Origin: Dactylorhiza incarnata
Lineage: Eukaryota; Streptophyta; Magnoliopsida; Asparagales; Orchidaceae
Direction: 5' to 3'
NCBI GenBank assembly: GCA_033032865.1
Contig: JAWHQI010000262.1
Location: forward strand, 3,231,501-3,295,500
Length of the DNA: 64,000 nt
Under the pieces are notes generated by a model, which saw only the letters and a program-made list of their open reading frames with translations, made no database searches and was not told the DNA's origin. Positions 9,263 through 53,251 of this stretch are shown here, one piece after another. A program made the position numbers and the translations under genes. How positions within the stretch are numbered: position 1 is the stretch's first letter; every line of letters begins with the position of its first letter.

Positions 9263-9330
9263 GGATTAGGAGATGGGGAGTCTCGAAGTATTGCAGTAAT
9301 TCTAAGTGTTAACCTAGACAAAATTGTTGT

Positions 9331-9870: not shown

Positions 9871-10034
9871 AAAGTATTTAACATTTTAGGGAGGTTATCT
9901 ACCCTATCATGTGGACTATGCCTACTGTAAAGTTGATCAATTCAGATTTCAATTTATCATAACATTACATATTATGAGAATTGTACAGATGAAACATAAG
10001 CAGTTTAATAGTGGGTATAGATTCATAAGTGAAC

Positions 10035-13265: not shown

Positions 13266-13277
13266 TGGTATCAGAGG
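13266..13277 (+). other. Primer binding site (tRNA-iMet type)
   Basis: TGGTATCAGAGG differs from the common plant site TGGTATCAGAGC only at its last base. It starts 2 nt after the LTR end at 13263. From 13273 the sequence is shared with the LARD-like repeat, so the element's body is missing. Confidence 0.75.
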
Positions 13278-13279
13278 CA

Positions 13280-13865
13280 TGCAAGGTGATTCCCACCTTC
13301 AATTCCATCAAAAAGCTCAAAAGCCCAAATTGACTATTAGCACCCCAATTTTTCCTCTTATGACCCAAACTTCATTTTGAAGTTCAGAGAAATATACTCA
13401 TGCACATGTGATGAAATTTTAACCAGATCTCATACATAACCTAAAGAAGCCCTCACCAAAATATGGGGTCATTAGGAGTTATATAACTCAAAATATTTCA
13501 TTTATTTAATTTTCTAAGTTTTGAACAAAACTATAGAAAAAGTATCTCCAAAAAATCTGATATTTAAACCTAAGCTAGGTATGAGGCACATGCATGCATG
13601 GCCAAAATCTCAAGTCCATCAGACTTGGTACTAAAAAGTTATACACATTCAAAGTTCTGATTTTTGTTTTACCAGCCTCAATAGAATGAGTGATGTGGGC
13701 ACTAAATTTGACCAAATGGCCTGATTCCACATTCATTTGGAAGTAGATACTCAGATCTACAATTCCTATCTCTGGGGATTTTTCGATTTTCGGCCTCTAA
13801 GGGCCTCAAAATCAGCTTGCAAAAATACAAAAAAAATGTGACAGAAAATCACATTGAATCAGATT

Positions 13866-13905
<40 letters not shown>

Positions 13906-17955: not shown

Positions 17956-18258
17956 AACTCTACCCTAGACCTATTCCTCTTTGTCTTATTGGGGATGACA
18001 TATCTCCCTCTCAGTTTGATAAAATTTCACCTACTTCATCAAAATTAGTACTTCACTAAGGTGGTTCGAGTAAATGAGAACTATAATGGATAAATTTCAT
18101 ATAATAGTTTAAGTAATTCCATATTAGCATACTTAAAGGGCATTAAAAAAGATGATTGTTCATAAGTAAATAATCAAATGTTCCTCAAAATCAAAATTTT
18201 AGTGGAATTTCACTAGAAAATCAGTTATCTGAAGCTCATCATTAACCAACTAGAGGCA

Positions 18259-20483: not shown

Positions 20484-20864
20484 CCCGGAGGGGGAGTGGA
20501 GGCAGCGCTCCGAAGGAATGCAAGGTCAGGGAAGGGGTTACGGCCCGGGAAGGGGTAACTTCTATGGAGGACAAGGAAGACCCCACCAGTTGGGTGGAGG
20601 CAGGGTCCGAGGCAGCTGCCTCCCCCGCCTCAGCAAGCTATGGCGATCAGGAGGGGAAGAGGAGGAAGAGGAAGGATAGAAGAGGCGAGAGAAGAAGCGG
20701 GGGCAAGAAGGAGGAGGAATAGGATGGCGGTAGGCGAAGCAGGGGAGGCGACGTTGCCGTATTGTGACTTCCACGATGACGAAGGTCACGCGACGGCCAC
20801 CTGCCAGAGTTCCTGGAAACAAAAGGGGCCGAGTTCCCCCGCCGAGGCAACAGGTGAGAATTGA
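20484..20864 (+). pseudogene. Tat1 gag C-terminal remnant
   Basis: A Gly/Arg/Glu-rich stretch precedes a zinc-knuckle-like motif, YCDFHDDEGHATATC (near 20757-20801), of the kind used for RNA packaging. The same region is present in Tat2 (about 47760-47430, minus). The frame is the protease frame, but TGA at 20862-20864 and a G run of 19 at 20952-20970 break it. Confidence 0.8.
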
Positions 20865-20975
20865 GGAGGTCGAGCCCTGAGGGGAGGAGGAAGAAAGGTG
20901 TGAAGACAGAGTTGATGTGGTGAGTAGAGGAGGGATCGGGGTGATCCATGAGGGGGGGGGGGGGGGGGGGTAGGG

Positions 20976-21878
20976 GTGGAGGCAACCCGCAAGGCTAGCC
21001 TACATACCATCTATCGTCAGAGTGTGGCCTCAACATCCACTGCTCCTCCCCCGGCGGAGAGAATTACTTTCTCCCAGAAGGACATGCCGAGCTATGAAGA
21101 CCTGTTCTGCGATGCGCTGGTCATCCAGACCGCCATCGAGAACTTCACCGTCTCACGGATTCTAGTCGATAACGGGAGCTCGGTCAACGTCGTCTTCAAG
21201 AAGGCGTTTGACGAGATGAAGGTGGAGTCCAAGAGGGTGTTGGCCTCGGATGGCCCCCTATTCGGCTTTTCAGGAGAAAGGAAGGAGGTAGAGGGTGGAG
21301 TGGGGCTCCATGTGACCCTCGGAGGGCAGTCCCGGAACTGCCGCTTCGTGATAGTGGATGCTCCAAGCAGCTACAGCGCCATCTTTGGACGGCCTCTCAT
21401 CAGCGCATTCAGATGTGTCCCTTCCACCATCCACCAATGTCTCAAGTTCAACGCGGGTGGAGTCCAGGTCCGGATCCGAGGAGATCCCAAGATGGCGAGA
21501 CACTGCTATGTGACGGATGTCAACACCAACACCTGGATGGGAGAAGCGGAGGAGTTCGATAAAATGATGGAGGAGGCATCAGAAGCCGGAGGAGAGAATG
21601 GAGTCGAGGAGAGGATGGGGGAAGAGGAGGTTCATGCCCAGGAAGGGGTCGCCGAGAGGCCCAGGGCGGAGAGAGGAGAGGATGAGGGGAAAGGAGAGGG
21701 TGCCCGGGAAGGAGGAGCGGAAGAGCTAATGATGGTAGGAGAGGCAGAGATGGAGGAAGGAGCCCAAGCGCTCGCTTGCGGAGGAGAGAAGGAAAGCGCT
21801 TGGGGAGAGCAATCCAGGCTAGAGGCTGTGGATGAGGTCATGGAGCTCGAAGTCACCATTCGGCTTGGAGTGGTTTAG
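20976..21878 (+). pseudogene. Tat1 aspartic protease region
   Basis: The frame contains the retropepsin active site ILVDNGSSVNVVF (about residues 60-72 of the ORF) and the flap-side motif YSAIFGRPLI. A Glu-rich linker of about 100 residues follows, leading to RT in the same frame. One TAG at 21876-21878 separates it from the RT segment. It would cleave the polyprotein. The start shown is simply the first Met after upstream stops and not necessarily real. Confidence 0.85.
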
Positions 21879-21905
21879 AAGGTCCGAGCCAGCGGGGAGC
21901 TCAAT

Positions 21906-23572
21906 TTGGAGGAGCGGGCTGAGATCCTAGCCTGCGCACAGAAGAATGTGTATGTCTTCGCTTGGAGTGCCACGGAGATGCCCGGGATCGATGCGGATGT
22001 GGCTTGCCCCCGCCTCAACCTCGACCTCGACCCCGACACCCACCCCATCCACCAAAAGAAGAGGGACACGGCGGACAAGCTAGAGGGACCAATCCGCGAG
22101 GAGGTGAAAAAGCTCATACAAGCAGGTTTTGTGTCGGAGATCCAGTATCCAGGCTGGGACTCCAATGTAGTCATGGTAAAAAAGGGGGGAGGTAAGTGGC
22201 GCATGTGTATCGACTTTTCACTTCTTAATAAATCATGCCCGAAAGATTGCTACCCCCTGCCTAGAATCGACGCGCTGGTTGACTCAGTCGTTGGTTTCTC
22301 TGTAATGTCTTTCTTAGATGCTTTTTCAGGTTATCATCAAATCCGCATGCACCCCCCAAACATCAAAGATGTCTCCTTCATCATGGGGGACGAATGCTAC
22401 TGTTATAAGATGATGCCCTTTGGGCTCAAGAATGTAGGTGCCACCTACCAAAGGATGATGGATCAGGTCTTTCACGAACAAAGGGGAAGAAACTTGGAGG
22501 TCTATGTTGATGACCTCATGGTGAAGAGCCGTGACCTTGGGTCTCACCTACATGACCTTGAGGAGACGTTTGGGACCCTACGGAAGTATAAGCTGAAACT
22601 CAACCCCTTGAAGTGTGTCTTCGGGGCTAGCCGAGGGAAGTTCCTGGGCCACTTGCTCACCACGGCAGGAGTGGAACCTAACCCAGACAAGGTCAAGGCG
22701 ATAATGGAGTTGGGTTCGCCGAGAAGCCCGAAGGAGGTTCAGAGCCTCACGGGGAAGCTGGCTAGACTCAGCAGGTTCCTCTCCAAAGCGGGAGAGAAGT
22801 GTGCGCCCTTCTTTAAGGTGCTGAGGGACAATAAAAAATTCGAATGGACCCCGGAGTGTGAAGAAGCTTTTCAGGCTTTGAAAGGGCAACTCACCCAAAC
22901 CCCCCTACTTCAAGGGCCGAGGCCGGGAGAAGACCTATCCCTATACCTTGGAGTGGAACTTGAAGCGGTAAGTTTGGTATTGATCCGAGAGGAAGGAAAA
23001 AAGCAGTTCACTATCTACTATGTCAGCCGAGTGCTGAAAAAGGCGGAGCTCCGGTACCCAATATTGGAGAAGTTGGCTTTTGCATTGGTGGTGACGGCTC
23101 GGAGACTCCGACCCTACTTCCAGGCACATTCAATCAAAGTAATCACAGATCACCCACTTCGCAAGGTGATGGAAGGGGTGGAACACTCGGGAAGATTGGC
23201 AAAGTGGTCCGTGGAGCTGAGCGAATTCGACATTACGTTTGTCCCCAGGGCGTCAGTCAAGGCCCAGGCAGTGGCAGACTTCATGGCTGACTATACCTCC
23301 GAAGTAGGGGAACATGAATCGCCTCCCCCAGTGGCGTGGAAGATGTTGGTAGATGGTGCGTCAGGAAGACACTCTTATGGAGGGGGAAACATCTTGGTAA
23401 GCCCCCAAGGGACCAAGATTGAGCAAGATTTGAACATCCACTTCCCAATTTCCAACAACCAAGTGGAGTGCGATGCGGTGATAGCAGGCCTGCGGTTGGC
23501 CCAGGAATTGGGGGTACAAGATGTGGAGGTCTCGACGGATTCCATGGTGGTCGCATGCCAAGTCAGGGGGAG
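21906..23572 (+). pseudogene. Tat1 RT, RNase H and archaeal-type RNase H
   Basis: RT shows KWRMCIDFSLLNKSCPKD, FLDAFSGYHQI, MPFGLKN and an intact YVDDLMVKS, then LGHLLT. The first RNase H is weak: TDHPLRKVM is kept but the first acidic site reads YLGVELEAV. A second RNase H follows, with MLVDGASG, NNQVECDAVIAGL and VSTDSMVV, so Asp, Glu and Asp are all kept. This second domain is specific to the Tat lineage. A frameshift near 23570 (after ACQVRG) moves the frame into the integrase ORF. Confidence 0.92.
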
Positions 23573-25045
23573 TTTAAGGCGAAGGACTCGACTCTCCTGC
23601 GGTACTTGGAAAAGGTCAAGGGGGTCATCGGGCATTTCCGCACTTTCTCCATCAAGCACGTGCCAAGGGAGGAGAGCACCCCCGCAGACCTCCTAGCCAA
23701 ATTCGGTCCTCGAGCGGGAGGAACGGTTTCGAAACTCTTCCGACCCACCATCGAGGAAGGAGAGTTGATGGAGGTGGATCAGCAGGTCTCGTGGATGGAT
23801 CCCTTCATCTCCTTCCTATCATCAGGGAAGTTCCCTGAAGGAGACATAGACAGGCGACGCTTCACGTATAAGTCAGCTTATTACTCTTTGAATGTAGGAG
23901 GGCTATACAGGAAGACTCTCTCGGGACACCTGGCCCGTTGTGTTTCAGAGGAGGAGGTTCCGAGAGTCCTAGAAGAAATTCACTCCGGGGAGTGTGGGAG
24001 TCACTCCGGGAGCCGAACTCTGGAAGGGAGGGTGTTGAGACAAGGCTACTTCTGGCCCACCCTCAGCAAGGATGCGGCGGAGTTCGCAAGGAGATGTTCA
24101 AAGTGCCAGCTCTATGCCCCACTCCAACCCCTCCCAGCCCAGAGGCTCTGGACCATCACAGATCCCTGGCCTTTTGCCATATGGGGGTTGGACCTAGTCG
24201 GCCCTTTCCCCCAAGCTAGTGGCTAAAGAAAGTTCTTGCTGGTCATGATCGATTATTTCTCCAAATTGGTAGAAGTGAAGGCGCTCGCCAAGGTAACATC
24301 TCAAGTTGTAAGGAATTTTGTGTGGAGAGAGATAATCTGCAGGCACGGACTCCCTCTGGCCATAGTGACGGACAATGGGCCACAGTTTGCTAGCGAAGAA
24401 TTTGTTAGCTTCTGCACCCAACTTGGCATCGACCTCAGGTTTGCATCGGTTCACCACCCGAGAAGCAATGGCCAGGTGGAGGCGGCAAACAAAGTGATCG
24501 TCATCCTACTAAAGAAAAAGGTGGAGAACCTACGGGGGAACTGAGTGGAGCAGCTACCCTCCGTCCTCTGGGCACTAAGGACTACCCCAAACACCGCCAC
24601 CGGAGAGACCCCGTTCAAACTTTCTCACGGGTCCGAAGCGGTCATACCCAACAAATTTGAAGTAAAAACCCCCAGGGTGATCGCCGCAGGTGAAGGGGAT
24701 GAAGAGTGGCTAGTGGCCAATGACGAGGAACAAAGGCTATCCTTGGACCTGGTGGAGGAACTCCGGGACCAGGCATTCATCAGGCAGGAAGAAATCAAGC
24801 GACGAATGGCCCGATATTTTGACAAGCACATCCTAGTAAAACACTTCGAAAAAGGCGACCTAGTGCTAAAGAAAGTTGACGCGGCCGAGAGAGGAGCCGC
24901 GGTTGGCAAGCTAGAGCCCAATTGGGAAGGACCTTACGTTGTAAGTGAAGTGCTCTGGTCAGGAGGATACCACCTCCGGGATGTGGAAGGGGTACCTCTT
25001 GGCCGATCCAGGAGTGGAGATGATTTAAAAAGGTTTTATCCTTAG
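23573..25045 (+). pseudogene. Tat1 integrase
   Basis: After the frameshift the frame continues through the end of the second RNase H and a linker into integrase. The zinc module is visible (EIHSGECGSHSG and CSKCQ near 24100). The core keeps Asp in GLDLVGPFP, Asp in VTDNGPQF and Glu in GQVEAAN. The C-terminal part reads FEKGDLVLKKV and GPYVV, as in gypsy integrases. Two stops interrupt it: TAA at 24224-24226 and TGA at 24542-24544. Confidence 0.92.
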
Positions 25046-30328: not shown

Positions 30329-31331
30329 TGTACAACCCCGATATTCGCCTAGTGGATGATCAAATAAAAGTGATGCGAGTCAGGTTCTCGGGATATATAT
30401 ATATATATATATGATAATAGGCAGAAAATAAGAGAAAGAGCAAAATTGACAGTGCTCGACGAAGTCCAAACAACGCTCGACGATCCCGTCTCAGCAGATC
30501 CACTGGGACGAGCACTTGGCCGTCTGCTTGCGAGAAGGTGAGCGAATCAAGAGTGCAAGTGGGGCAGGAGTGCAGACGAGGTCTTCACAGGCCATTCGCC
30601 CAAAGGAGGCGAACCAGATCTATCAAAGGTCGCCCGCGGGAAGAGGCGCGAGTCCAGTTCCCACGAGCCAGAACCTCAAGGTCAACCGGCAAGAAGGCGA
30701 GCGAGCCAGGCGCTCGCCGAAGGCTCGCAAGGAGGCGAGCGAGCCAAAAACTCGCCGAAGGATCGCGAGAAGTGCTCAGCCTGGCGCTCGACGAAGTGTG
30801 GGCCACGTTCGACGAATTCGCCAAAACATTGCGTTCGACGAACTCTCCAAGCTGCCGCGTTCGACGAATCCGTTAATCATCCTATGATCGACGAAATCAT
30901 CTCTCTATCCCCGTTGGTCTGCCATTAGCCTATCCGAACAACGGAGTTTAGCTGTTAGCAGACCCATTTGGATTGCGGATAGTAAAATCAGAAGGCAGAA
31001 TCCTGCTATTTGCAGGCTAGACCAGGAATCCTATAAATAAGACCTCAAGGGCACCTTTGGGAGGGACTTCACTTCAGCTTCTCTCTCCTCAGGTTTTCCT
31101 TGGTTAGCATTTCCAGAGCTCTCCAAGGTGCCAGAGTCTCAGCTTTGGCTTGGGAGGGGAAGCGCTCAACGATCTTCCGTGTTAGTGGAGGGACCTCCTC
31201 GCTATGACTAAGGTCTTAGTCAACCTTCCTAGTTTTTGGTCAACCTTCTCTAAGGGATCAGTAAGGGCTAGCCGCCCCTCATCTCGGTGAGGGCCCCGGA
31301 CTCCACAGAGACCGAGAAATCGGTTTCAACA
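30329..31331 (+). repeat. Tat1 3' LTR
   Basis: It starts TGTACAACCCCG, as the Tat2 LTRs do (TGTACA.CCCGTATTTG), and ends TTTCAACA at 31331. From 30930 it aligns closely with Tat2 LTR (CAACGGAGTTT.GCT.TTAGCA, GGCTTGGGAGGGGAAGCGCTC). It holds a (TA)n tract at 30392-30410, a cluster of CTCGACGAA motifs (30455-30895) and TATAAATA at 31032-31039. Its Tat2 relatives are shorter, at 687 and 670 bp. Confidence 0.85.
31032..31039 (+). promoter_or_regulatory. TATA box of Tat1 LTR
   Basis: Plus-strand TATAAATA within a segment conserved with the Tat2 LTRs, which have TATATATA at the same place (45293-45300; 49143-49151 on minus). Confidence 0.65.
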
Positions 31332-33014: not shown

Positions 33015-34353
33015 TGAAAGGGAGGTTTAGTTCTTATTTATCTTATTAAATAATCTTGATTAAGTTTTGGTTTCAAAATAAATGATATGTATATTTATAT
33101 GTGTTTGCTGTATGAGTAATTAACACAAGCAGTGAGAGTGCACATCACAAGTAAAAACATAAAACAATGAACAAACCAAAACAATCCAGATGACACAAAG
33201 AAATATAGTAGTTCCCCTCAACTGGGTACATCTACTCTTCTACCCACTGGTAGGAATCCACTAGGAGGTTGTTGATAAGGTGCCCTCACACCAAGTGAGT
33301 TTTTGATAAGGTGCTCTAACCAAGATGCAGGTTTTTGCTAAGGTGCCCTGTCACCAAGATTAACTTTTGAAGGGAGTTATAACCCTGTACAGGATAGGGG
33401 TAAGGAAATAAAATAAAACAGAAATTGTAATGTTCTTCTCTGTATAAGAAGACTCTTGAAGATCCAGATGTGGTGTTGAATGGATCTGATATTGAAGAGC
33501 TCCCCCTGTCTGATATAGATTGTTGACAGTTCTGGAGGTCTCTCCTTTCAAACACTTCTTTCCTCTGTTGCAATGATAATCCTGAGCAAGTAGTTGTGAT
33601 TTGTGTCTCAGGATGTTTTTAATCTACAGGAAGATGTTAGCAACCAAGAATGTGTTATATTTTTGTGTGTCGTCTTTTTATCTCTGTATATGTCCATGTT
33701 TCTCTCCTTCTCTTTAGTATTTATAATCTGAGAAGTACTTTTGAATTCTTGCCTGGGAAAATGGAAAGAGATAAAGTCTCTTTAATTTCATTCCTTGGGA
33801 AGATAAGTTTGCCGATTTGACACAACAGAAACGGCTATGATCTTTAATGCTGCAACGGCTAGATTAGCAAAAGATATTGCATAATATATAAGAGAGCTGT
33901 CAGCATAAATCATATTTTAGTCGAACTGACAGAGGCATATAAAATTTCGTCGAACTCAGCTTTGCTTTCGTCGAGCTGGGCTTATCTTTTGATGTGCTAA
34001 GCAATTCTCTGTATATAAAATATACTTGATTTGATCTGAATAGATTTCGTCGATCTTGATTTACCTCGTCGACCTGCTGAGCCTTGATGATTGCGTCGAG
34101 CGCTGAGATTTAGAGAAAGCGTCGAGCGCTGAGATTTATAGAAAGCGTCGAGCGTTGAGCGCTGATCGTCGAACGCCGGTAGCAGTTCGTCGAGCGCAGA
34201 AGACTTATGATAATTTTAACTTTTCTTCTCCGATTCGATCCCATTATATTTAATTTATGTTTTCTTTAGGATAATGTGATTTAAGTTATCAGATAGATGA
34301 ACTTTAGAGATTAGATGCTGATCCTAACTCAAATCAAACCTAAGGTTCCAACA
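33015..34353 (-). repeat. 3' LTR of short copia-type element
   Basis: Left LTR copy. It contains minus-strand TATAAATA at 33725-33718 and, upstream of it, TCGTCGA motifs, including three units of GCGTCGAGCGCTGAGATTT (34091-34160). Confidence 0.93.
33718..33725 (-). promoter_or_regulatory. TATA box of short copia-type LTR (left)
   Basis: Minus-strand TATAAATA. The identical motif lies in the right LTR at 36556-36563, about 630 bp from the LTR start in both. Confidence 0.6.
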
Positions 34354-34848
34354 ATCTCCCCCTATTTGAGTTGGGATCCTAAATCAAATTAAAACTAGTG
34401 GCCTGGTGGTCTCCCCCTATTTGGTGTAGGATGCCGACAGTTTTAATTTTTATATTCTCCTTTTCTCTCTCACTTGGTTTCTCTGAATTTCTCATTTTCT
34501 CTCTCACTTGGGCTTTAATAATTTTTTATCCTTGTAAAATTATTTGAGCCACTCTGCTTTCCTAGATTTTAATTTCTTAAGATCTGAATTAAAATTTTCA
34601 ATTGCACCAACCTTTGTAATTAGAGAGATTAAATCTTATTTGGGGTTTTGAGCTTCTCATTTTCTCTCTCACTTGGGTAACTTTATTATCCTAGAAAGTT
34701 TTAATATGTGAATTGCTACAGCTGTTAATGAATTTTAAGAGATATCAGACATTTTCTTTCTCATAGAATCCCCTTATCAGAAGAGACTCACACTCAGTGC
34801 TATGATCATTTCTGATCAGTGCAGCTACAGTAGAATGCTCAAACTGAC

Positions 34849-35852: not shown

Positions 35853-37191
35853 TGAAAGGGAGGTTTAGTTCTTATTTATCTTATTAAATAATCTTGATTA
35901 AGTTTTGGTTTCAAAATAAATGATATGTATATTTATATGTGTTTGCTGTATGAGTAATTAACACAAGCAGTGAGAGTGCACATCACAAGTAAAAACATAA
36001 AACAATGAACAAACCAAAACAATCCAGATGACACAAAGAAATATAGTAGTTCCCCTCAACTGGGTACATCTACTCTTCTACCCACTGGTAGGAATCCACT
36101 AGGAGGTTGTTGATAAGGTGCCCTCACACCAAGTGAGTTTTTGATAAGGTGCTCTAACCAAGATGCAGGTTTTTGCTAAGGTGCCCTGTCACCAAGATTA
36201 ACTTTTGAAGGGAGTTATAACCCTGTACAGGATAGGGGTAAGGAAATAAAATAAAACAGAAATTGTAATGTTCTTCTCTGTATAAGAAGACTCTTGAAGA
36301 TCCAGATGTGGTGTTGAATGGATCTGATATTGAAGAGCTCCCCCTGTCTGATATAGATTGTTGACAGTTCTGGAGGTCTCTCCTTTCAAACACTTCTTTC
36401 CTCTGTTGCAATGATAATCCTGAGCAAGTAGTTGTGATTTGTGTCTCAGGATGTTTTTAATCTGCAGGAAGATGTTAGCAACCAAGAATGTGCTATATTT
36501 TTGTGTGTCGTCTTTTTATCTCTGTATATGTCCATGTTTCTCTCCTTCTCTTTAGTATTTATAATCTGAGAAGTACTTTTGAATTCTTGCCTGGGAAAAT
36601 GGAAAGAGATAAAGTCTCTTTAATTTCATTCCTTGGGAAGATAAGTTTGCCGATTTGACACAACAGAAACGGTTATGATCTTTAATGCTGCAACGGCTAG
36701 ATTAGCAAAAGATATTGCATAATATATAAGAGAGCTGTCAGCATAAATCATATTTTAGTCGAACTGACAGAGGCATATAAAATTTCGTCGAACTCAGCTT
36801 TGCTTTCGTCGAGCTGGGCTTATCTTTTGATGTGCTAAGCAATTCTCTGTATATAAAATATACTTGATTTGATCTGAATAGATTTCGTCGATCTTGATTT
36901 ATCTCGTCGACCTGCTGAGCCTTGATGATTGCGTCGAGCGCTGAGATTTAGAGAAAGCGTCGAGTGCTGAGATTTATAGAAAGCGTCGAGCGCTGAGCGC
37001 TGATCGTCGAACGCCGGTAGCAGTTCGTCGAGCGCAGAAGACTTATGATAATTTTAACTTTTCTTCTCTGATTCGATCCCATTATATTTAATTTATGTTT
37101 TCTTTAGGATAATGTGATTTAAGTTATCAGATAGATGAACTTTAGAGATTAGATGTTGATCCTAACTCAAATCAAACCTAAGGTTCCAACA
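35853..37191 (-). repeat. 5' LTR of short copia-type element
   Basis: Same length as the left copy and nearly identical to it. The few differences include C/T at 36674 and A/G at 36464 relative to the left copy, so the insertion is young compared with the rest of the window. Confidence 0.93.
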
Positions 37192-37660
37192 GTCTCGACG
37201 AATTCGCCGAATGGTCTCGACGAATTCGCCGAATGGTCTCGACGAATTCGTCGAATGGTCTCGACGAATTCGTCGAATGGTCTCGACAATCGTCGAGACC
37301 CACTCGAAGGATCATTGAGACAAACTCGACGGACCATCGAGACCAATTCGACGGACCGTTGAGACCTATTAGATGGATTTGTCGAGTCATCTCGACGAAC
37401 CGTCGAGACCATAGAGTCTTTTCGATGGATTCATAGAGTCCTCTTGACAAACCATCATGACCGTCGAGTCTTCTCGACGAATTCGTCGAGACCGCTCGAC
37501 AAACCGTCAAGATTGTCGAGTCTTCTCGATGAATTTGTCGAGTCCTCTCGACGGATCTGCCAAGACCGTCAAGCTCACTCGACGGATTCGTCGAGTCCAC
37601 TCGATGAATCCGTCGAAACCATTGATTCCGCTCAACAATTTCGTCAAGCCTTTTGGCGCA
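37192..37660. repeat. 22-bp satellite with GACGAATTCGTC palindrome
   Basis: The first part (37192-37290) is a clean tandem array with a 22-bp period, each unit holding GACGAATTCG(T/C)CGAATG and GTCTC. It then decays into scattered TCGACGAA/TCGTCGAG words to about 37660. The short copia-type element was inserted in it: one unit's remnant lies left at about 32990-33014. ORFs on both strands are repeat translations. Confidence 0.85.
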
Positions 37661-39373: not shown

Positions 39374-39856
39374 ATATTGATATGACCCGAGAGACAGTGG
39401 GCTATGGACACTCCAGGCATGGACTGCTCTCACAAGATCCAGAGTCCACACTGATGGATCTTGAGTCTATCCTAGTCAGATCACTTGGGTCGTGACTCGC
39501 ACACACCCAACACTTCTCTGCCCCTGCTCTCAGCGTGTTGGGTTGTTAAGGCTCAGGCTCAATACCCAGAACTCATAGATGAGGACTCCTATCGAGTCTC
39601 ATCACCAACTAAGCCATAACTCAGTTGGTGATGAGACTCGGTAGGAGGAGTACTCATCTAGGAGGTCTGGGTATCTAGCCCCAGCCTCAACAACCCACCC
39701 AGTTGAGAACAGGTATGGAGAAGGGTTGGGGTGTGCTGGCCATGACCCATGCGATCCGACCAGGACAGACTCTGGATCCATCATAGTGGACTCTGGATAT
39801 TGCGAGAGCAGTCCCTGCCTGGAGTGTGAGCAACTCTGTGCCTCTTGGGTTGTATC
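39374..39856. repeat. Foldback: inverted repeat with about 235-bp arms
   Basis: The left arm (about 39374-39609) and right arm (about 39624-39856) are imperfect reverse complements separated by 14 bp. The inner ends match well (GAGTCTCATCACCAAC and GTTGGTGATGAGACTC), as do segments such as CACTCCAGGCA.GGACTGCTCTC. No TIR-type target duplication was found. It may be a foldback transposon or an inverted fusion of retroelement leaders: TGTATCAGAG at 39851-39860 is close to a primer site. Confidence 0.8.
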
Positions 39857-42714: not shown

Positions 42715-43195
42715 TTTGAATACGTACAATTTCATAAAGTGGTTAAATTCAAGCCCAATTCTTTTGAATAATGAAACCAAGGTCAATCATGATATTATTA
42801 GGGTGCTATAAAAATTTGGGAATTTATTGAAAGGTTTAAGACTCGTTTATTTCATTTATATGGAAGTGTGACATATTAAATACTATCCTTTTAAAGGCAT
42901 AAATTCATAAAGTGATCAAATGAAGTCCAAACCTATTGAAAAACAAAACCAAGGTCAGTCATGATATTATTAGAGGGCTATAAAATGTTGGGAATTTATT
43001 GAAGGGTTTAAGACTCATTTATTTCATTTATATGGAAGTGTGACATACAAAATAATATCCTTTTAAAGGCATAAAATAATAATGTGATCAAATGAAGTCC
43101 AAACCTTTTGAAAACATAAACCAAGGTCAGTAATGACATTATTAGGGTGATATACAGTTTGGGAATTTATTGAAGGGTTTAAGAATGAAAGATTT
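42715..43195. repeat. 172-bp tandem repeat, three units
   Basis: CCAAGGTCA(A/G)T recurs near 42778, 42950 and 43122, a spacing of 172 bp. It is followed each time by ATTATTAG.G.G and later by GGGAATTTATTGAA. The third unit is truncated by the SIRE2 LTR start at 43201. Confidence 0.85.
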
Positions 43196-43200
43196 GGGTT

Positions 43201-44721
43201 TGATTAATATACACCTAGAGGGGGGGGGGGGGTGATTAGGCGTTTATAACGTTATTTTGTCCTTTAAACTATTTAGCACAGTACACAAGCAAACCAGAAA
43301 ACAGACAAAGATTTATAGTGGTTCCCTTCATGACAATATGTCAAGATGTAGTCCACTATCCCTCCAACCTATCTAGCAATGTGCTAGACTAGGCAACTTC
43401 TCCAAAAACTCAAATCTCCTTTACAATACAGTAGATCTTACAACTCGGATCACAAAGGATCCTACCTCAGCCCTCACACAGGAAAGTTTACTCTCAGGTT
43501 ACAAAAACCCTATTAATAACTCAGACTTTACAAGCCCTACCAAACACTTAGATATTCACCAAGATCCTACTAACCACTCAGATCTTCACCAAGATCCTAC
43601 CAAACTCAGACTCACACAGAACCCTACAAAATGAGAAGGTTATTTTGCTGTTGTACAAGAGAAGGCTTGAATGATAGAGCTTTTCACTGAATGGACTTCT
43701 TCTTCTTCTTCTAGTAGATGTAGCCTTAGAGATCTTTTGGATCACCAAAGCTTTCTTTAGAATCTTCTTTTGAAAAATATCATATTATATATTTTAACCA
43801 GGGAAGATGATTCTTTCTTTGATCTTCACATCACAACAATGAAGACTTCTTGTTCATCACTTTTCTCCTTTTAAATGTGAGTGTGAAAGTAAGAGAGTAA
43901 GAGCAAAAGAACTGTACATTGATTTCAAAATTCTCTCTATTTATATTTTTCTGCACTTTTGCTTAAAAGCCCTCAATAATTTATTTTATAATTAATTGGG
44001 CCATCCAGGAATATAGACTGGAATGGAATACTAATATGCCATAAATGCTTTGCCGTTTTTGAAACTTGCATAATATGAAAGTATTTCATATTCTACTTTA
44101 ACTGCTGTGTAACAACTAGATCTGCAGAGAATATATTATTAATTATTCCTTTATTAGTGCATAAGATAGGCGTCGTATATATTCCATGTATATCAATTTC
44201 CAAGAAAGATCAGTGCATTAAATGCAGCTCTGCAATTGTCAAGACGACAAACTTCCTTCAAGAGGATATCATTTTGATCATCAAGACGATATATGTTCTT
44301 CACGACGATGTCGTCTACATACTTCTGTCTTCATAACTTATTAAGATATATAGACGATATACTTCATTCTAGACGATATTGCTTGATGTTTCAGTCTGCA
44401 TGATGTATATTTAATCTTCAAGATGATATGACTACTTCAAGACAATATTTAGACCTTTGTCTGCACGATCTTTACTTAACCATTTCAATGATTAAACTTC
44501 TTCAAGATGACATCCTTCTATCTCAACGATGTATGGCTCAGCATCCAGACGATTTTTAACTTAAATGATTTTCACTTCTATTATAGTCTTGAGACATGAG
44601 ATTGTATCTTTGATAAATCTGTCACATCATGAACTAAAACATAATATCAAAAACAAATTTGTTTATCTATACTCGTGTTCCTTCTTCAAATCTAGGAACA
44701 TTGAGGGCTTACTTCCCAACA
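43201..44721 (-). repeat. SIRE2 3' LTR
   Basis: On minus it starts TGTTGGGAAGT at 44721, after a decayed polypurine tract (AAATAGGAAGAGAT), and ends near 43201 (plus TGATTAATATACACC). It has a G13 run at 43220-43232, minus-strand TATAAATA at 43945-43938 and, upstream of the TATA, a cluster of CAAGACGAT/ATCGTCTTG words (44235-44560). It is about 1521 bp, longer than SIRE1's. Confidence 0.75.
43938..43945 (-). promoter_or_regulatory. TATA box of SIRE2 LTR
   Basis: Minus-strand TATAAATAG in the SIRE2 LTR, placed downstream of the CAAGACGAT motif cluster. Confidence 0.6.
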
Positions 44722-44896
44722 ATCTCTTCCTATTTGAAGAAGCCAGAACTTACAATTATAGATAAGCTTGACTAACAAATATATTCAATAAAAATCAAAC
44801 AAAACTTAGAACACTTGATATATTGATTAAATATTGACCCAGAAGAATAAAGAAATATTAATCAGGAATGTAAGACATAAAAATGTGCATTGTGTT

Positions 44897-45583
44897 TGTA
44901 CATACCCGTATTTGCTGAGCGGGACCCCAGGCTCGAGATAGGGAAAAAAAGCAAGGAGGGCATTCGCCCAGGTCAAAGAAGGTGGACACTCGCGGGACAC
45001 TCGCCTGGGGGACCAGGGTCCCTGCGGGTGGCACCCTCCAGGGCCATTCGCCCCGCTGGTGCCGGAAGGCCTTGTGTAAGGAAGGCTGGGCCAGAGGTGC
45101 CTTCACAGACCACTCGCACAAGAGGTTTTGGGGGGGGGGGGGGGGGGGGGGGTAAAATTACATATATACCCTTCATGGGCTGCAAATAGCCCTTCAAAAC
45201 AACGGAGTTTGGCTATTAGCAAACCAATTTGGGGTGCGTTTAGTAAATCCAAAAGGCAGGATTATGCTATTAACAGACCAGGCTAGAAGAGTTATATATA
45301 GACCATGAAGGGCACCTTTGGAGAGGATCCCAGTTCTAGGCTTCTTCCTCCTTACGTTCTTTGGTTAGCTCCTCAGGCTCTCCAAGGTGTCCGGCTTCAG
45401 CTTTGGCTTGGGAGGGGAAGCGCTCTAAGATCTTCCAGGTGTGTGGTGGGACCTCCTTACTGTAGCCAAGGGTCTGTGTTAAGCTCCTAGTCTCCAGTCT
45501 GTTGCTTCCGCGGGATTAGTAAGTGCTACCAACCCCTCTAAGGGGTCCGATCTGCTCGTTGGGGCCAAGTCTTGGTTCCAACA
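44897..45583 (+). repeat. Tat2 left LTR (inverted, plus orientation)
   Basis: It starts TGTACATACCCG and ends CCAACA at 45583, followed by TTTT and the primer site. It aligns as the reverse complement of 48860-49529 over its whole length. It contains a run of 23 G at 45130-45152 and TATATATA at 45293-45300. Confidence 0.92.
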
Positions 45584-45587
45584 TTTT

Positions 45588-45599
45588 TGGTGCGGTGAG
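45588..45599 (+). other. Tat2 primer binding site next to left LTR
   Basis: TGGTGCGGTGAG begins with the TGG that pairs with tRNA CCA and lies 4 nt after the LTR end. The tRNA is not identified. Beyond these 12 nt the sequence is antisense pol, not leader. Confidence 0.75.
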
Positions 45600-46539
45600 G
45601 CACTGGACTTCCTTCTCATTCCTCTGTGATCCCAACTCCTGGATTGCCTTTACATTATCAGGGTTAGGTTCCACCCCCCGCTGGGGTGAGTAAGTGGCCC
45701 AGGAACTTCCCTCGTCTAGCCCCAAAGACACACTTCTGGGGGTTGAGTTTCATCTTGAACTTGCGCAAGTTCCCGAAGGTCTCTTTAGGGTCCTGATGGT
45801 GGGACTCAAGGTCCCGACTCTTAATCATGAGATCGTCCACATACACTTCTATGTTCCTTCCCTTCTGTTCTCGAAACACCCTGTCCATCATCCGTTGATA
45901 AGACGTCCCTGCATTCTTTATCCCAAAGGGCATCAGCTTATAGAAGTAGCACCCATCCCCTATGATGAAAGAGACATCCTTGACATCGAGAGGGTGCATG
46001 CAGATCTGATGGTAACCTGAGAAAGCATCTAGAAAACTCATTAGGGAAAAACTGATGGCTGAGTCAACCAACGCGTCGATTCGAGACAGGGGGTAACAAT
46101 CATTGGGGCATGATTTATTTAGTAAAGAAAAGTCTACACACATCCTCCACTTACCATATCCCTTCTTTACCATTAAAATGTTAGAGACCCAGCCTGGGTA
46201 CTGGATCTCGGAGACAAAACCTGCCCTGAGAAGCTTGCTCACTTCCTCCCGGATTTGTCCTTCCAGCTTGTCTGCGGTGGACCTCTTCTTCTAACGGATG
46301 GGACGGGTGCCGGGGTTGAGGTTGAGGCGGTGGCAGGACACATCTGCATCGATCCTTTGCATGTCCGCAACACTCCAAGCAAAGACGTCCATATTTTCCT
46401 GGACGCAAGCTAGGATCCTCCTCCGGTCCTCGGGGTTGAGCTCCCCACTGATCTTCACTTTTTCGATCTCCCCTGCCCGGGAGATGACCTCCAGCTCCAC
46501 TAACTCCTCCACGGCCTCTTTCCTGGACTGCTCCCCCAA
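45600..46539 (-). pseudogene. Tat2 RT, truncated
   Basis: The frame enters at 46539 (GEQSRKEAVEELVE) and passes stops or frameshifts near 46290 and 45665. RT shows KWRMCVDFSLLNKSCPND, FLDAFSGYHQI, MPFGIKN and an intact YVDDLMIKS. It ends at EVQCLT, the point where Tat1 continues TGKLARLS. From there the DNA is the reverse complement of the primer site and LTR. The missing RNase H and integrase mean it could not have mobilised itself. Confidence 0.9.
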
Positions 46540-47351
46540 CCAACTTCTTTCTCTTCTCCGCCCGCTGGTGTCTCTACATCTTTCGCCTCCTCTCCTTCTT
46601 CTCTGACCTCCATCATCTCCTCTGCCCTTTCTCCCTGGGCTTCACCTTCTTCTCCTCCTCCTCCCACTTTTCTTCCTTCTTCTCCTGCCTCTCCTGGCAT
46701 TACCGGCTCCCCCATCTCCCTATCCCACTCATCGGCCTCTTCCATCCAGGCGATGGTGTTCACGACGATCATGTAGCACTGCCTTGCCACCATAGGGTCT
46801 TCCCTTACCCATACCTGGGCTCCCCCTGCATTGAACTTGACGCATTGATGAAAAGTAGAGGGGACGCATCGGAATGTGCTGATGAGGGGCTGTCCGAAGA
46901 TGGCACTATAGCTATTGGGGGCATCCACGATGATGCAGCGGCAATATCGAGACTGCCCTCCCAAGATGACATGGAGCCCCACTCCTCCCTCCACCTCTTT
47001 TCTTTCCACCGAGAATCTAAACAACGGATCGTCCGAGGCCAACACCCTTCTATCCTCCACCTTCATTTCATCAAACGCCTTTTTGAAAATGACGTTGATC
47101 GAGCTCCTGTTATCCACGAGGATCCGAGAGATGGTGAAGTTCTCGATGGCCGTCTGGATAAGCAGCGCATTGCAGAATGGGCCCTCATGGCCCGACATAT
47201 CCTTCTGAGTAAACGTGATCTTTTCTGCTGGGGGTGGGGCTTGGGATGTCGAAGCAAAGCTCCGACGATATATGGAGTGGAGGCTCACCTTCTGGGACGC
47301 ACTGACCCCAACACCCCCATGGATCACTCTGATCCCTCCTCGGGTCCCCAC
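46500..47351 (-). pseudogene. Tat2 protease region
   Basis: Collinear with Tat1 protease and linker. The active site reads ILVDNRSS, so the Gly of the usual DNGSS (kept in Tat1) is replaced by Arg, which should abolish activity. YSAIFGQPLI is kept. A Gly/Glu-rich linker runs to the stop at 46500. A frameshift near 46535 separates it from RT. Confidence 0.88.
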
Positions 47352-47403
47352 GTCAACCTTGTCCTCACACCTCTCTTCCTCCTCCTCCTGAGGAAGGACC
47401 TAC

Positions 47404-48810
47404 TCAATCCTCACTGGTAGCTTCTCCCGCTGCGCCGGCACTCTGGCCCCCCTCGTCTCCAAGAACTCTGGCAGGTGGCAATCGCGTGACCTTCCTCCTG
47501 GTAGAATTCACAATAGGGCAACGCCACCCCCTCCCCTCGGCCTCCGCCCCTCTGTTCCTCCTCCTGATCCCGGCTCCTCTTCCTCTTCCTGCTCTTCCTC
47601 TCCCGACCACCATCACCAGCTGAGGTGGGGGAGGAGGTGACCTCGGGCCCTGCCTCCACCCTAGATGATTGGGTCTTCCTTGTCCTCCTTGGAAGTTGCC
47701 CCCTCCCTGGTGGAAGCCCCTTCCTGGACCCTGCACGCCTCCTCCTTGCTGCCTCCACCCCTACTCCAGGGACCTTGCCTCTTCTCTTTTCCTTTCTTCC
47801 GGCTTCCTAACCTGCAACTCGCTCAGCCTTGCCAACCTTTTTGTGAACTCAGGGTTAGCTTCCTCCCTTTCTATCTCCTCCGCCGCCCGCTCCATCAGCT
47901 CCTCGAAGGATAAGGGGCCCTCCTCTACATGCTCATCTTGAAGAAACCCTCATGCAAACCTACTATAAAGGCAAGCTGGAGGGTGAACCCGAGCACCTCC
48001 TGTATGAGAAGAACCTACTCCTAAAAAGGTCTACATAGTTGGCCAACAACTCCCCGTCCTCTGCTTGATGTTGAAGAGCTCCTTCTTCCTCTTTTTCGAT
48101 GTTGAGAAGCACAACAAGAAACTGAAACGCAGATCTTCGAAGGCATAAATCGATCCTGCAGGCAGCTGGTGAAACCAGTCCCTCGCCTTCTCCTTCAGGG
48201 TGGTGGCGAAGAGTCAGCATTTGAGGAGACCATATATTCGTACCACTGCAGGTGCTGAACCGGGTCATCCTTACTGGTGTACAACATCATGGCCGACTCC
48301 CCGAACCCCTCGGGTAGTGGTGCTAAGAGCACCAATTCGCTAAATGGGCTTCCCCCATTCACCCCTCTCACCTGCTCCACTCTCCCCATGACCTCCATGG
48401 GCGACCCTGCTCCTGACGGTCTCACGCTCGTGAGGGGGCCATTCGCCGGGATCCCACTTATCGGGGTCTCACTTGTCGGGGTCCCGCTTGCTGGGTGCAT
48501 GCTCACTGGGACCTCACTTGCACTCGCTAGGCTGGGGAAGATTTCCCGGCCCGCGAGATCTCACCCTGGTGCCTGAACCGACACCTCCTTTCTCATCCTC
48601 TGCCCAGGGGAATTCTCTCCAGCTCCTGACGGCGTGTCCATCGGGGGCACAGGGGTTGTGAGACCCACTAGCATCGTGGAAAGAGCGTACTGCATTTCCC
48701 CAAGTAGGTCCCTTATGATGTCTGTCAGCATTTCTGTTGTTACTAGCGCGCCGGGTGGTGTTGTTTTGCTGAGATTCGCGTCTCACTCATCTTCTCTTAC
48801 CATATCACTT
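47404..48810 (-). pseudogene. Tat2 gag
   Basis: The gag N-terminus is readable as KTTPPGALVTTEMLTDII and, after a stop, PFSELVLLAPLPEGFGES.MMLY. The capsid core segment follows with frameshifts (KEKARDWFHQLPAGSIYAFE near 48200-48130). A zinc-finger region near 47520 (CEFYQEEGHAIATC) corresponds to YCDFHDDEGHATATC of Tat1. Many frameshifts and stops make it a clear pseudogene. Confidence 0.82.
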
Positions 48811-48844
48811 CCTTGGAACTTTCTTGTGCTAACTGCTCTCTATT

Positions 48845-48856
48845 CTCACCGCACCA
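48845..48856 (-). other. Tat2 primer binding site next to right LTR
   Basis: Minus-strand TGGTGCGGTGAG, 3 nt after the LTR end at 48860 and identical over 12 nt to the site at 45588-45599. Here it continues into leader (AATAG), so this is the original 5' end of the element. Confidence 0.8.
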
Positions 48857-48859
48857 AAA

Positions 48860-49529
48860 TGTTCGAACCTAGACTTCGCCCCAACGAGGAGATTGGACCC
48901 CTTAGAGGGGGCAGGTAGCACCTACTGATCCCGCAGAAGCAACAGACTAGAGACTAGGAGTTTAACACAGACCCTTGGATACAGTACGGAGGTCCCACTA
49001 CATACCCGGAAGATCTTAGAGCGCTTCCCCTCGCAAGCCAAAGCTGAACCCGGGCACCTTGGAGAGCCTGAGGAGCTAACCAAAGAACCTAATGAGGAAG
49101 AAGCCTAGAATTGGAATCCTCTCCAAAGGTGCCCTTCATGGTCTATATATACCTCTTCTAGTTTGGTCTGCTAATAGAGTAATCCCGCCTTTGGATTTTA
49201 CTAAACGCACCCCAAATTGGTATGCTAACAGCCAAAATCCGCCGTTTTGAAGGGCTATTGGCAGCCCATGAAGGGTATATAGTTAATTTTACCACCCAAA
49301 ACCCCCTGGGAGAGTTGTCCGTGAAGGCACCTCTCGCCCAGCCTTCCTTACACTAGGCCTTCCGACACTAGCGGGGCAAATGCCCCTGGAGGGTGCCATC
49401 CGCAGGGACCCTGGTCCCCCAGGCAAGTGTCCCGCGAGTGTCCACCTTCTTTGACCTGGGCGAATGCCCTCCTTGCTTTTTTCCCTATCTCGAGCATGGG
49501 GTCCCGCTCAGCAAATACGGGGTTGTACA
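48860..49529 (-). repeat. Tat2 right (true 5') LTR
   Basis: 670 bp, starting TGTACAACCCCG on minus at 49529. It is related to the Tat1 3' LTR and is the reverse complement of 44897-45583 with small differences. The long G run of the left copy is absent. TATATATA lies at 49151-49143. Confidence 0.92.
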
Positions 49530-49553
49530 GTGTTCCTAAGATCTTTTTCTTCA

Positions 49554-51115
49554 TTAATCCTCTTGAACAACTTTCACTTTTCCATATGATCCAGCCTTCT
49601 TAGATTGTTCAGCTTCAGCCAACTTTTCCTTTTGCCTTTCAAAATAGTTGTATGGTTTGGGATGATATCTGAGAGGAGCATGTGTAGGCACTGAAGGATC
49701 TCCCATCTTAACCTTGTTCCAATAATCTAGTATACCAACTTCACCCAATTCATATTTGTGTCATTCTTCAGAGCTATAAAATTGACCTTTATCATACTTT
49801 CCTTGCTGGTATAGTGTCCAGGTATTTAATATAATATCCCTTGAACAAGGGCTCCATTTTTCAAAATTTGGATTCTTCTTGACTTCCTCCTTTCTTTTTC
49901 TCTTGGCCTCCTGCTCTGCTTGATTTTCATGATGTCTCTTTCTCCTTTTAGATTGGTACTCATCAGTGAAATAATTTTGATATGTTTCAGGTTGTAAATT
50001 TTGCTTTGAAAGATCTTTTGTCATTGGAACATTTGAAGGTCCCTCACGGATGATACTTCCTTCTGGAATAGGATGTTGATAAGCAATCCTATAATCTATT
50101 TGATCAAGATCTATGGAGAATTTTACGTCATTGGATAGCCACATGGCATGATGGCTTGACTTGATCTCCCCCTTTTTGGCTTCTAAAAATATTTCTTTAG
50201 AGAGCGAGGCCTGGGAATTCTGAAGTTGTCTAGAGAGAAGGGCATTAAGAGTTCCAACTGCATCCATGAGAGTGCCTTGAGTAGTTCTGAGAGATTGAGT
50301 GAGAAGTGAGGAGAGCTGATTTTGTGTAACATGAAGCTGTTGAAGTAGATTTTCACCAACAATATCTACTAGCTCATAAGAGAATTGAGTAATAGATTAT
50401 ATTCTTTGAAGGATAGTATTAACAACATCTTTTAAGTCATTAAAGGTCATATACTGATTCTGAATAATTGCTTGTTGATTATCTCTTAATGTTGCCATTC
50501 TATCAAGCACTATGTTAAATTGTTGTCCAATCAGCAAGGTTGCTTCATTGATATGGGCTATTTCATTTTCTGTGTTAGCAACAACATTTGTAGCAGTATG
50601 ATACACATTTGCATTTTGATGATTTATATGTTGAATTTCCTCTTGCAAAACATGTATCCTTGCAGACAGCTCATCTTTACAACTTGTGACAGCATTATTG
50701 ACATATGCTTCAAAGTGTATTCTCTGCCTTTCAAATAGGGCTTCCATTTGAGACATGAGATCAATGGATGTGGTTGTGGGGGCCGTGAAGATTGGAGAAT
50801 GTTGCTCATTTACTTTTCTTGGAGGTGAGGACAGTAGTGTGATCTAAATAGTAGACTCCCCCTCCATTGTTGCAGGGATATCAGAGGGCTGCTCACATTC
50901 ATTTTCTTGAGTATTTTGATGCATATTTGGGCATTTGCAAATATTTTAGACAATGCAGTGCAGTATAGTCGAGTAGGCTCAGTGAGAACATACTCTAATT
51001 CTGAAGCATATAGCAAGGTAATTACCATGTCAAGATCTTCATCAACACCTTTGAAGACATCATTCAATAACTTTCCTCTAGATAGAACTTTCTCATTTGA
51101 CATCTTTAGCACCAT
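49554..51115 (-). pseudogene. SIRE2 env-position ORF, decayed
   Basis: Homologous to the SIRE1 ORF at 6468-9220. The C-terminus reads LRYHPKPYNYFERQKEKLAEAEQ where SIRE1 has a PPRYLPKPFLYFKRKE stretch. The middle (50756-50397) is a Gln/Ala/Ile-rich coiled coil (ELSARIHVLQEEIQHI). The N-terminal exon (51115-50900) keeps LEYVLTEPTRLY but lacks the several-hundred-base part corresponding to SIRE1 8900-8240, so a deletion removed most of exon A and the intron. Several stops and frameshifts are present. Confidence 0.75.
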
Positions 51116-51630
51116 TACTTGTTGCAGGAAGTCATCAAGAGGAAGAAGATTAAGATGGGATTCTAGGGTTTTGTGTGTGCAATTTCTATGCTTTCACATT
51201 GTCTAATATGTACTATTATGCTTTTGGAAGGTAAAGAAGTGCGTACCTGATAAAATCTTGTAGAATCATTTTGAAAAGCCCGTAATTGTAGCATAATTAT
51301 GACGCTCATGTGACCTGTGACGTCATCTTCTCGTCAAGATGGTGTATTCAGTATCATCTTGATTACAAATGCATTGTCGTCGAGAGTATAGTATTGTCTT
51401 GATTCATCAAGATGATTGTTATAATTTCCAGTATTTTCTAGACAAATCTACTGTATTCCTTAGTCAATATGTTGTTGCTGTCATTCAAAAAACTAAAAAT
51501 GTTAGTCTTCTTTAGGGTGGATCTTCTAATCCATCCCATCAACATTATAAGTTAATCACTACTATAAATGAAGGATGAAATTCAACATGCCCAATTTTTA
51601 AGAACTTAGCATTCCCAATTCAATTTTGAA
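51116..51630. promoter_or_regulatory. SIRE2 spacer before env-position ORF, ATCTTGA motif cluster
   Basis: Non-coding spacer between RNase H and the env-position ORF. It has CTCGTCAAGATGG, TATCATCTTGAT, TTGTCTTGATTCATCAAGATGAT and similar words at 51325-51420. These resemble the motif cluster of the SIRE2 LTR (44235-44560), not that of SIRE1. No clear TATA box was found. Confidence 0.5.
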
Positions 51631-52071
51631 TTAATAGAACTTAGACTTATCAAGGGGCTTGGTAAATATATCAGCTATTTGTCTATCTGAACTGACATTA
51701 TCAAGGAAGATATCTTCATTTTCTACATGCTCCCTGATGAAATGATATCTAATCTCAATATGCTTTGTTCTACTATGTGCCACAGGATTTTTAGCTATAG
51801 AGATGGCACTAGAGGAATCACAGAATAGAGATGTTCTCTTAATATGTAGATTGTAATCCTCTAATTGGTGTTGAATCCAAAGGAGTTGTGCACAACAACT
51901 ATCAACATAGATATATTCTGATTCAGCTGTGGAGATAGCAATGCAATTTTGATTTTTGCTACCACAGTACACAAGTCTTCTCCCCAAGAACTGACAAGTT
52001 CCTGAAGTGCTTTTTCTATACTCTGCATCCAACAAAGTCTGCATCAGAATACCCACACAGCTCAAAGTCAT
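51631..52071 (-). pseudogene. SIRE2 RNase H
   Basis: Copia RNase H with [41 protein letters not shown] and TKHIEIRYHFIREHV, ending at DIFTKPLDK. It is frameshifted relative to RT near 52030, inside the GYSDADF segment. Confidence 0.9.
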
Positions 52072-53251
52072 TTGACTTAGGATACCACGGTCCTAGATTA
52101 GGAGTACCCTTCACATATCTCAAAATACTTTTGACTGCTAAGTAATGAGATTCTTTGGGGTTCACTTGATATCTTGCATATACACATGTAGCAAACATGA
52201 TGTCTGGCCTACTAGCAGTGAGGTAGAGCAATGAGCCAATTATGCTTCTATACATGGACTCATTATAGAGTTTCCCCTTTTCATCCTTGTCTAGTGACAT
52301 ATTTGATCCCATAGGAGTTCTTATAGGGGTGCAGTTCTCCATTCCAAATTTCATTATGATATCCAAGGTAAATTTGGTCTGAGAAATGAAAATTCCTTCC
52401 TTAGATTTCTTTACTTGAATACCTAACAAATATTTGAGCTCTCCCATACTGCTCATTTCAAATTTGCTTTGCATGAGCTTAGCAAATTTCTTGCAAAGAT
52501 TCCCATCAGTTGATGCAAATATAATATCATCAAAATATATTTGGACTAAAAGGATCTGGCCCTACAATTCTCTTAAGAAAAGAGTCATATCTATTTTCCC
52601 TCTTGAGAAATTGTTTTCAAGAAGAAAGGTAGACAGTGTCATATATCAAGCCCTTGGTGCTTGCTTCAAGCCATACATGGCTTTCCTTTGAAAATAAACA
52701 TAATTAGGATGGTCCTGTGAGATAAAACCTGGTGGTTGAGCTATAAAGACCTCCTCCTTCAAGTCTCCATTCAGAAATGTTGATTTGACATCCATTTAGT
52801 AGTCTTTGTAACCCTTGAATGCAATATATGCTAGAAAAATTCTGACGGACTCCAATCTAGCTATATGAGCAAATGTCTGATCAAAATCTATGCCTTCCTC
52901 CTTCCTGTATCGTTAGGATACTAGTATTGTTTTATTCTTTATGATCACTCTAGCTGCATCCATCTTGTTTCTGTAGACCCACTTTGTCCCAATGATATAA
53001 TGCCTATGTGTTCTTGGAACAAGCTTCCAAACTTTGCATCTCTTGAATTGGTTGAGCTCTTCTTGCTTGGACATAACCCAGACTTGGTCTTGGTTAGCTT
53101 CCTCAAATTTCTTTGGTTCAAGTTTTGATAGTAAACTGAGGTGCAGGCTTACATTCATAGCATTACTTCTGTTTCTAACTCCATGATTAAGCTCACCAAT
53201 TATCTGGTCAGATGGATGATTTCGGAGATGTCTTCCTGTTATGGGTAGCAA
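52016..53251 (-). pseudogene. SIRE2 reverse transcriptase
   Basis: Collinear with SIRE1 [50 protein letters not shown]. The active site reads IYFDDIIF, with the Val of YVDD changed to Phe while the two Asp remain. Stops occur at about 52911, 52796, 52645 and 52565 (the last codons before the restart at 52474 are also interrupted). It would copy RNA into cDNA if intact. It is not functional here. Confidence 0.9.

Follow-up and report, generated by a model that had tools for sequence, protein, structure and literature searches.

A retrotransposon insertion with inverted long terminal repeats in Dactylorhiza incarnata and its probable origin from an aberrant reverse transcript

Inspection of a 64,000-nt stretch of the genome of the orchid Dactylorhiza incarnata (assembly GCA_033032865.1, contig JAWHQI010000262.1, positions 3,231,501 to 3,295,500; hereafter the window) showed that positions 44897–49529 correspond to a Ty3/gypsy (Tat-type) retrotransposon insertion whose two long terminal repeats (LTRs) face each other. 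This insertion very probably arose from the single integration of an aberrant linear complementary DNA (cDNA) bearing U3 at both termini and most likely formed from two plus strands joined tail to tail. The cDNA origin is well supported by a target-site duplication (TSD), by paralogous empty sites, by the sister relationship of the two LTRs and by the location of the inner junction in the primer binding site (PBS). The strand-level steps leading to the cDNA would be those proposed further below.

Structure of the insertion and its target site

Read from left to right, positions 44892–49534 contain GTGTT, a right-reading LTR, an internal region whose coding sequence lies on the minus strand, a left-reading LTR and a second GTGTT. 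The features are as follows.

44892–44896, + strand: left TSD, GTGTT (one copy in 12 paralogous empty sites, exact in 10)
44897–45583, + strand: left LTR, U3-R-U5 rightwards, U3 at the outer terminus (BLAST of the arms; sister of the right LTR)
45588–45599, + strand: first 12 of the 18 nt of the PBS, adjoining the left LTR (alignment of the arms and 60 sampled PBS sites)
45593–45599, + strand: junction match CGGTGAG (CTCACCG in the coding direction), common to the PBS and the reverse transcriptase (RT) region (RT relatives and junction query)
45600–46242, − strand: truncated RT region (RVT_1; Pfam match), cut where a relative has VQSLT-GKL
46243–48838, − strand: rest of the internal region, with the gag/protease side and the leader (collinear with relatives)
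48839–48856, − strand: PBS of the right LTR, an 18-nt span whose last 6 nt show 3 differences from CGTGGA (alignment of the arms)
48860–49529, − strand: right LTR, U3-R-U5 leftwards, U3 at the outer terminus (BLAST; sister of the left LTR)
49530–49534, + strand: right TSD, GTGTT (paralogous empty sites)

An earlier note, made from the sequence alone, had described 44897–45583 as an inverted copy of 48860–49529, with TGTACA at both outer ends and GTGTT on both sides. Both descriptions proved accurate: the outer ends of the two LTRs read TGTACA, the arms aligned by BLAST at 88.6% over 704 columns with the adjoining PBS counted in, and the gap-free distance between the two LTRs was 0.088 over 667 sites. 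The left LTR also holds a run of 23 G residues (45130–45152) that is missing from the right LTR; a similar run is found near 4008–4028.

In the coding direction, the internal region begins with the PBS at 48839–48856, continues through gag/protease-side sequence and ends in an RT that is cut at 45600. A Pfam scan of two internal open reading frames (ORFs) returned RVT_1 for one (E = 1.1e-27) and no match for the other, while the remaining internal region was collinear with canonical Tat-type copies. The non-self genomic matches to the RT were 85–89% identical (39 scored), and its nearest named relative was a protein from the orchid Platanthera (72%). The TG..CA LTR ends, the 5-bp TSD and this RT are those of a Ty3/gypsy Tat-type element. 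The insertion lacks the same-orientation LTRs and the polypurine tract (PPT) ahead of the 3′ LTR that such an element should have; each of its LTRs leads into a PBS, with no PPT ahead of it such as canonical 3′ LTRs show. A further mark of Tat elements is a second RNase H domain following the first. A relative located in the window at 21906–23696 carries RVT_1, RNase H and RVT_3, and the corresponding part is missing from the inverted copy. With no PPT, no 3′ LTR and nothing coding beyond the RT, the product should be a dead end.

The right flank of the insertion is a repeat, which allowed the empty target to be read in other copies. A search with this flank scored 40 of 883 candidates, and the best 12 of the 39 non-self copies were fetched; these are paralogous copies of the target repeat, not orthologous sites. 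The insertion point was uninterrupted in all 12, with a single exact GTGTT in 10 and a word with one substitution in the other two (GTGCT in L060, ATGTT in L062). As regards individual paralogues, L064 and L065 are nearly identical, L055 shows a gap of 10 bases and L061 diverges at a point farther upstream. Since the paralogues show the target without loss, both GTGTT copies stem from one staggered cut. The insertion therefore goes back to a single integration event that truly duplicated 5 bp of the target and removed none of it; the earlier note had likewise taken GTGTT for a target duplication. TSDs of 5 bp could be read on both sides of 13 other copies of the family; eight matched fully (L005, L011, L015, L027 and the pairs C3073, C199, C2472 and C2828) and five were one base off (C876, C2089, C2851, C3061 and C2906).

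An alternative is that two independent convergent insertions were brought together by deletion of the intervening DNA, the match between the two GTGTT words being a coincidence. With a PBS as abundant as this (3012 and 2961 exact sites on the two strands), chance alone should produce about 41 convergent pairs within 15 kb. The chance of a 5-bp match is, however, about 0.001, and two insertion points would not yield what the 12 paralogues show, namely a complete target with the duplicated word present once. The sister relationship of the LTRs, described below, also speaks against independent insertions. This alternative was rejected on the evidence of the paralogous empty sites and retains scarcely any probability.

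The target itself is a copia-type element that carries an extra ORF and is present in two diverged, collinear copies (4695–11665 and 43164–53223), the second of which received the insertion. The two copies (4.7–11.7 kb and 43–53 kb) match in short blocks.

The two LTRs compared with ordinary LTR pairs

The relationship between the two LTRs was examined in a tree of 28 LTRs of the subfamily, sampled by searches with the left and the right LTR, each of which scored 40 candidates (of 9695 and 4727, respectively); no LTR was removed beforehand. One base of each LTR (the last of the left, the terminal one of the right) was unevenly kept or omitted, which does not affect the distances. The left and right LTRs were each other's nearest neighbours (0.088), the next nearest LTR lying at 0.102 from the left one and 0.100 from the right one. 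They were sisters in the tree, with a Shimodaira–Hasegawa-like approximate likelihood ratio test (SH-aLRT) value of 98.7 and an ultrafast bootstrap (UFBoot) value of 100, and shared five exclusive derived sites.

Six same-orientation pairs, inferred by position, orientation and, where readable, TSD, served for comparison. Their internal distances were 0.053 (C2851), 0.071 (C2828), 0.075 (C199), 0.088 (C2961), 0.091 (C1514) and 0.132 (C2472), a range within which the value for the inverted pair falls. Five of the six were recovered as sisters; the C2961 pair is doubtful, one member grouping with the flank-sharing C2529 copies. Exclusive shared derived sites numbered three in each of the C199, C2472 and C2851 pairs and six in the C2828 pair. 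Judged from their sequences, the inverted LTRs behave like ordinary partner LTRs of one element.

The divergence of the arms also bears on whether the structure could be a fold-back artefact of the assembly or of the library. Fold-back chimaeras typically show inverted arms, as seen here. The arms of an artefact should nevertheless be near-identical, and those observed differ at 8.8% of sites; nor would an artefact generate a TSD that matches paralogous empty sites. An artefact is thus very unlikely.

The same downstream flank was found on different LTR copies in two cases, one comprising L076, L077 and L079 (C2529 twice, and C2961) and the other L075 and L078 (C802 and C1110). These flank-sharing copies represent either segmental duplications or uncollapsed haplotypes.

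The inner junction and the proposed origin

The homology between the arms extends past the LTR and through TTTTGGTGCGGTGAG, ends at 45599 and gives way to divergence immediately afterwards. The left arm therefore consists of a complete U3-R-U5 followed by the first 12 nt of the PBS (taken as 18 nt), to which the RT frame is joined at CTCACCG. What normally follows was read at other sites of the PBS. The 16-mer TTTTTGGTGCGGTGAG occurs exactly 3012 and 2961 times in the genome, as compared with 0 and 1 for a control pattern. From these 5973 sites 100 were listed, and 60 of them were sampled; the sample excludes six sites on C23, a single site on C41 and the final 33 (those past C55:4875017). All 60 were directly preceded by an LTR end, which read CAACA in 53 cases and a variant in seven, and the six bases past the first 12 nt of the PBS were CGTGGA in 51 and one or two bases off in nine. 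Every sampled site was thus canonical, passing from the LTR end to the normal continuation. In addition, among the 49 LTR loci read, 18 besides the left LTR enter the PBS, and all 18 proceed to the leader, leaving the left LTR as the sole exception. Across the sampled sites (L085–L144), one PBS is common to LTR copies with clearly distinct leaders.

The other side of the junction was examined in RT relatives, which carry on beyond the point where the RT of the insertion stops. At the position of the break, six of 12 relatives have CTCACCG (L046, L049–L053), while L033, L037, L044, L047, L048 and the in-window relative are one base off; CTCAC is kept in 11 of the 12. Since the reverse complement of the PBS contains CTCACCG, the two sides of the join match over as many as 7 nt. 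In 200,000 trials of random joins, a match of at least 7 nt arose in 0.05% and one of at least 5 nt in 0.6%.

During normal replication, the plus strand starts at the PPT, so that it begins with U3, and the U5 end of the 3′ LTR derives from the tRNA-primed minus strand. Both termini of the insertion start with U3 and continue into R, U5 and the PBS, so that each arm represents a plus strand. The left arm would correspond to a plus-strand strong-stop DNA (U3-R-U5-PBS), and the right arm to a plus strand that had already been transferred and extended through gag into the RT. Close to its 3′ end, the extended strand could then have paired through CTCACCG with the CGGTGAG that the strong-stop DNA carries in its PBS, and copying of each strand on the other would have produced a linear duplex with U3 at either end. 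The 6-nt tail of the strong-stop DNA may have been kept or lost, and either strand may have done the priming. A strong-stop DNA priming on genomic RNA would end the copy at R, without U3; a DNA plus strand is therefore the simpler template. Integrase would finally have processed two U3 ends in place of one U3 and one U5, and inserted the duplex with the usual 5-bp stagger. The earlier note had suggested a rearranged cDNA with U3 at each terminus, a suggestion that gains support from the empty sites in the paralogues, from the sister relationship of the LTRs and from a junction that lies in the PBS at a short match to the RT. It had also regarded a later inversion as unlikely. Inversion of the 3′ LTR in place is excluded: both arms are 5′-LTR-plus-PBS structures, and the left LTR carries on its U5 side a PBS that 3′ LTRs do not have.

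A different course of events starts from a canonical element flanked by the GTGTT TSD, in which later template switching, during repair or replication, replaced everything from the RT to the 3′ LTR with an inverted copy of the element's own 5′ LTR and PBS, the switch back occurring exactly at the LTR/TSD border, where three bases (TGT) are shared. Such an event would likewise preserve the TSD and yield sister LTRs, and the short CTCACCG match is also compatible with it. It requires, however, two switches, and the second has to coincide precisely with the edge of the LTR. With only one switch of the fold-back kind, the inverted right flank (AACAC) would lie outside the left U3, where GTGTT is found instead, and the left flank, judged from the paralogues, is normal target. 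The divergence of the LTRs is like that of ordinary pairs and gives no sign of later copying. Taken together, these considerations make later switching improbable.

Several observations weigh against the origin from a two-U3 cDNA. When only transversions were used, the tree kept the left and right LTRs as sisters but with low values (SH-aLRT 34.6, UFBoot 81); the same tree lost the C199 and C2851 pairs, so the signal is short there. Of the 39 other copies scored in the search with the right LTR, a set that does not contain the left LTR, a C199 copy ranked highest (901 bits); in the search with the left LTR, the right LTR scored 889 bits, a value reduced by the G run. Despite this ranking, both the gap-free distance and the tree place the left LTR closest to the right one. 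At the junction, the arm ends 12 nt into the 18-nt PBS and not at its end; an intact strong-stop 3′ end therefore did not prime directly, and the 6-nt tail must either have been lost or have stayed unpaired. As to the 7-nt match, it is read from relatives, just half of which (6/12) have it whole. The use of two U3 ends by integrase is likewise presumed from the structure of the insertion. Finally, no second independent case of inverted LTRs was found in the genome searches described below.

Rarity of the inverted form, related systems and other repeats in the window

A query spanning the inner junction yielded 8517 candidates, of which 40 were scored. The window was the only match to span the junction; the other 39 began at query positions 32–45, and 27 of them exactly at 34, which corresponds to 45593, the first base of the 7-nt match. 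An amplified family of inverted elements was not found among these 40, nor did a check by eye of the 100 listed PBS places reveal a convergent PBS pair within 15 kb. As far as these searches reached, the inverted insertion looks like a rare dead-end product, a one-off rather than a new class. The earlier note had proposed a search for further Tat insertions of this type, and to the extent just given the junction proved single and the PBS sample canonical.

The insertion resembles the canonical Tat-type Ty3/gypsy copies of the same genome in its LTR, its PBS, its order from gag to RT and its 5-bp TSD; the canonical copies differ in that their LTRs share one orientation and a PPT precedes the 3′ LTR, whereas the copy in the window has nothing of the 3′ half. 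There is also a likeness to 5′-inverted LINE-1 copies, which are inverted insertions produced by an accident of reverse transcription (twin priming). LINE-1, however, is a non-LTR, target-primed element that uses no integrase.

A close parallel is provided by the template-switching complexes that Sabot and Schulman (2007, PMC1950507) described for plant LTR retrotransposons and that also combine aberrant reverse transcription, one integration, 5-bp TSDs and similar outer LTRs. The insertion shares with them the TSD on its flanks and outer LTRs that match and stem from a single reverse transcription. The complexes were described in grasses, have three LTRs and two internal regions, and involve a switch at R, with no mention of inverted LTRs; the insertion in the window has two LTRs, which are inverted, and a switch inside the PBS, and it contains neither a third internal LTR nor two complete internal regions. 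DIRS-1 and other tyrosine-recombinase retrotransposons, according to PMC5633606, also have a coding region between inverted LTRs, with sense and antisense transcripts possible. By the same account, this class replicates, has a tyrosine recombinase as well as an internal complementary region, and is presumed to insert as circles. The insertion, unlike DIRS-1, is a single broken Ty3/gypsy copy with a 5-bp TSD, belongs to a family whose other copies have direct LTRs and, with only the window spanning the junction among the 40 matches scored, gives no indication of replicating as an inverted family.

Suicidal integration of the cDNA into itself (autointegration) yields internally rearranged retroviral DNA, as described in PMC3148978, and in being rearranged these products resemble the insertion. 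In that description they are circles formed when integrase attacks the element itself, and are not inserted in the host. An autointegration product should have an LTR terminus joined to internal sequence; here the inner junction lies in the PBS and both LTR termini sit in host target. Autointegration was therefore rejected, its probability being negligible. Oppositely directed LTRs are touched on in two further studies: one in cucumber dropped two sequences of this kind (PMC4600303), and one in grape suspects them at some loci (PMC7166211). The earlier note knew of no established plant class built in this way, and in the open-access literature, seen in part as excerpts and forming the whole scope of the search, no description was found of an inverted-LTR insertion with a TSD from an integrase-type element; its statement holds to that extent, for what looks like a single event.

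The insertion preserves a naturally occurring mistake of reverse transcription whose product was nonetheless integrated. By implication, a pair of U3 ends can serve for integration, and plus-strand transfer at the PBS, which involves few paired bases, stands out as a stage at which the replication of these elements can fail. LTR finders look for direct repeats. An insertion of this kind would be missed by such searches. As a tentative proposal, plant Ty3/gypsy integrases might accept two-U3 cDNAs, inverted-LTR insertions produced when plus strands pair tail to tail might recur, rarely and unnoticed, in large plant genomes, and hairpin transcripts could feed silencing. If so, the long-hairpin transcripts of such loci could supply small-RNA silencing of the family; for DIRS-1, antisense transcripts accompany its control by RNA interference.

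The window contains other repeats. A more distant Tat-type relative (RT, RNase H and RVT_3) occupies 20484–25045 and 30915–31278 in + orientation. A 7.2-kb block bounded by direct repeats adjoins the left side of its first segment; these repeats (13273–15514 and 18252–20483) are 2.25 kb long and 96% identical, and their aligned edges, AGAGGCATGC..GTTACA, are unlike ordinary TG..CA LTR ends. Two direct repeats of 1344 bp, 99.3% identical and without plain TG..CA edges, lie at 33015–34358 and 35853–37196. A 420-bp imperfect palindrome, 80% self-complementary, is located at 39408–39827.

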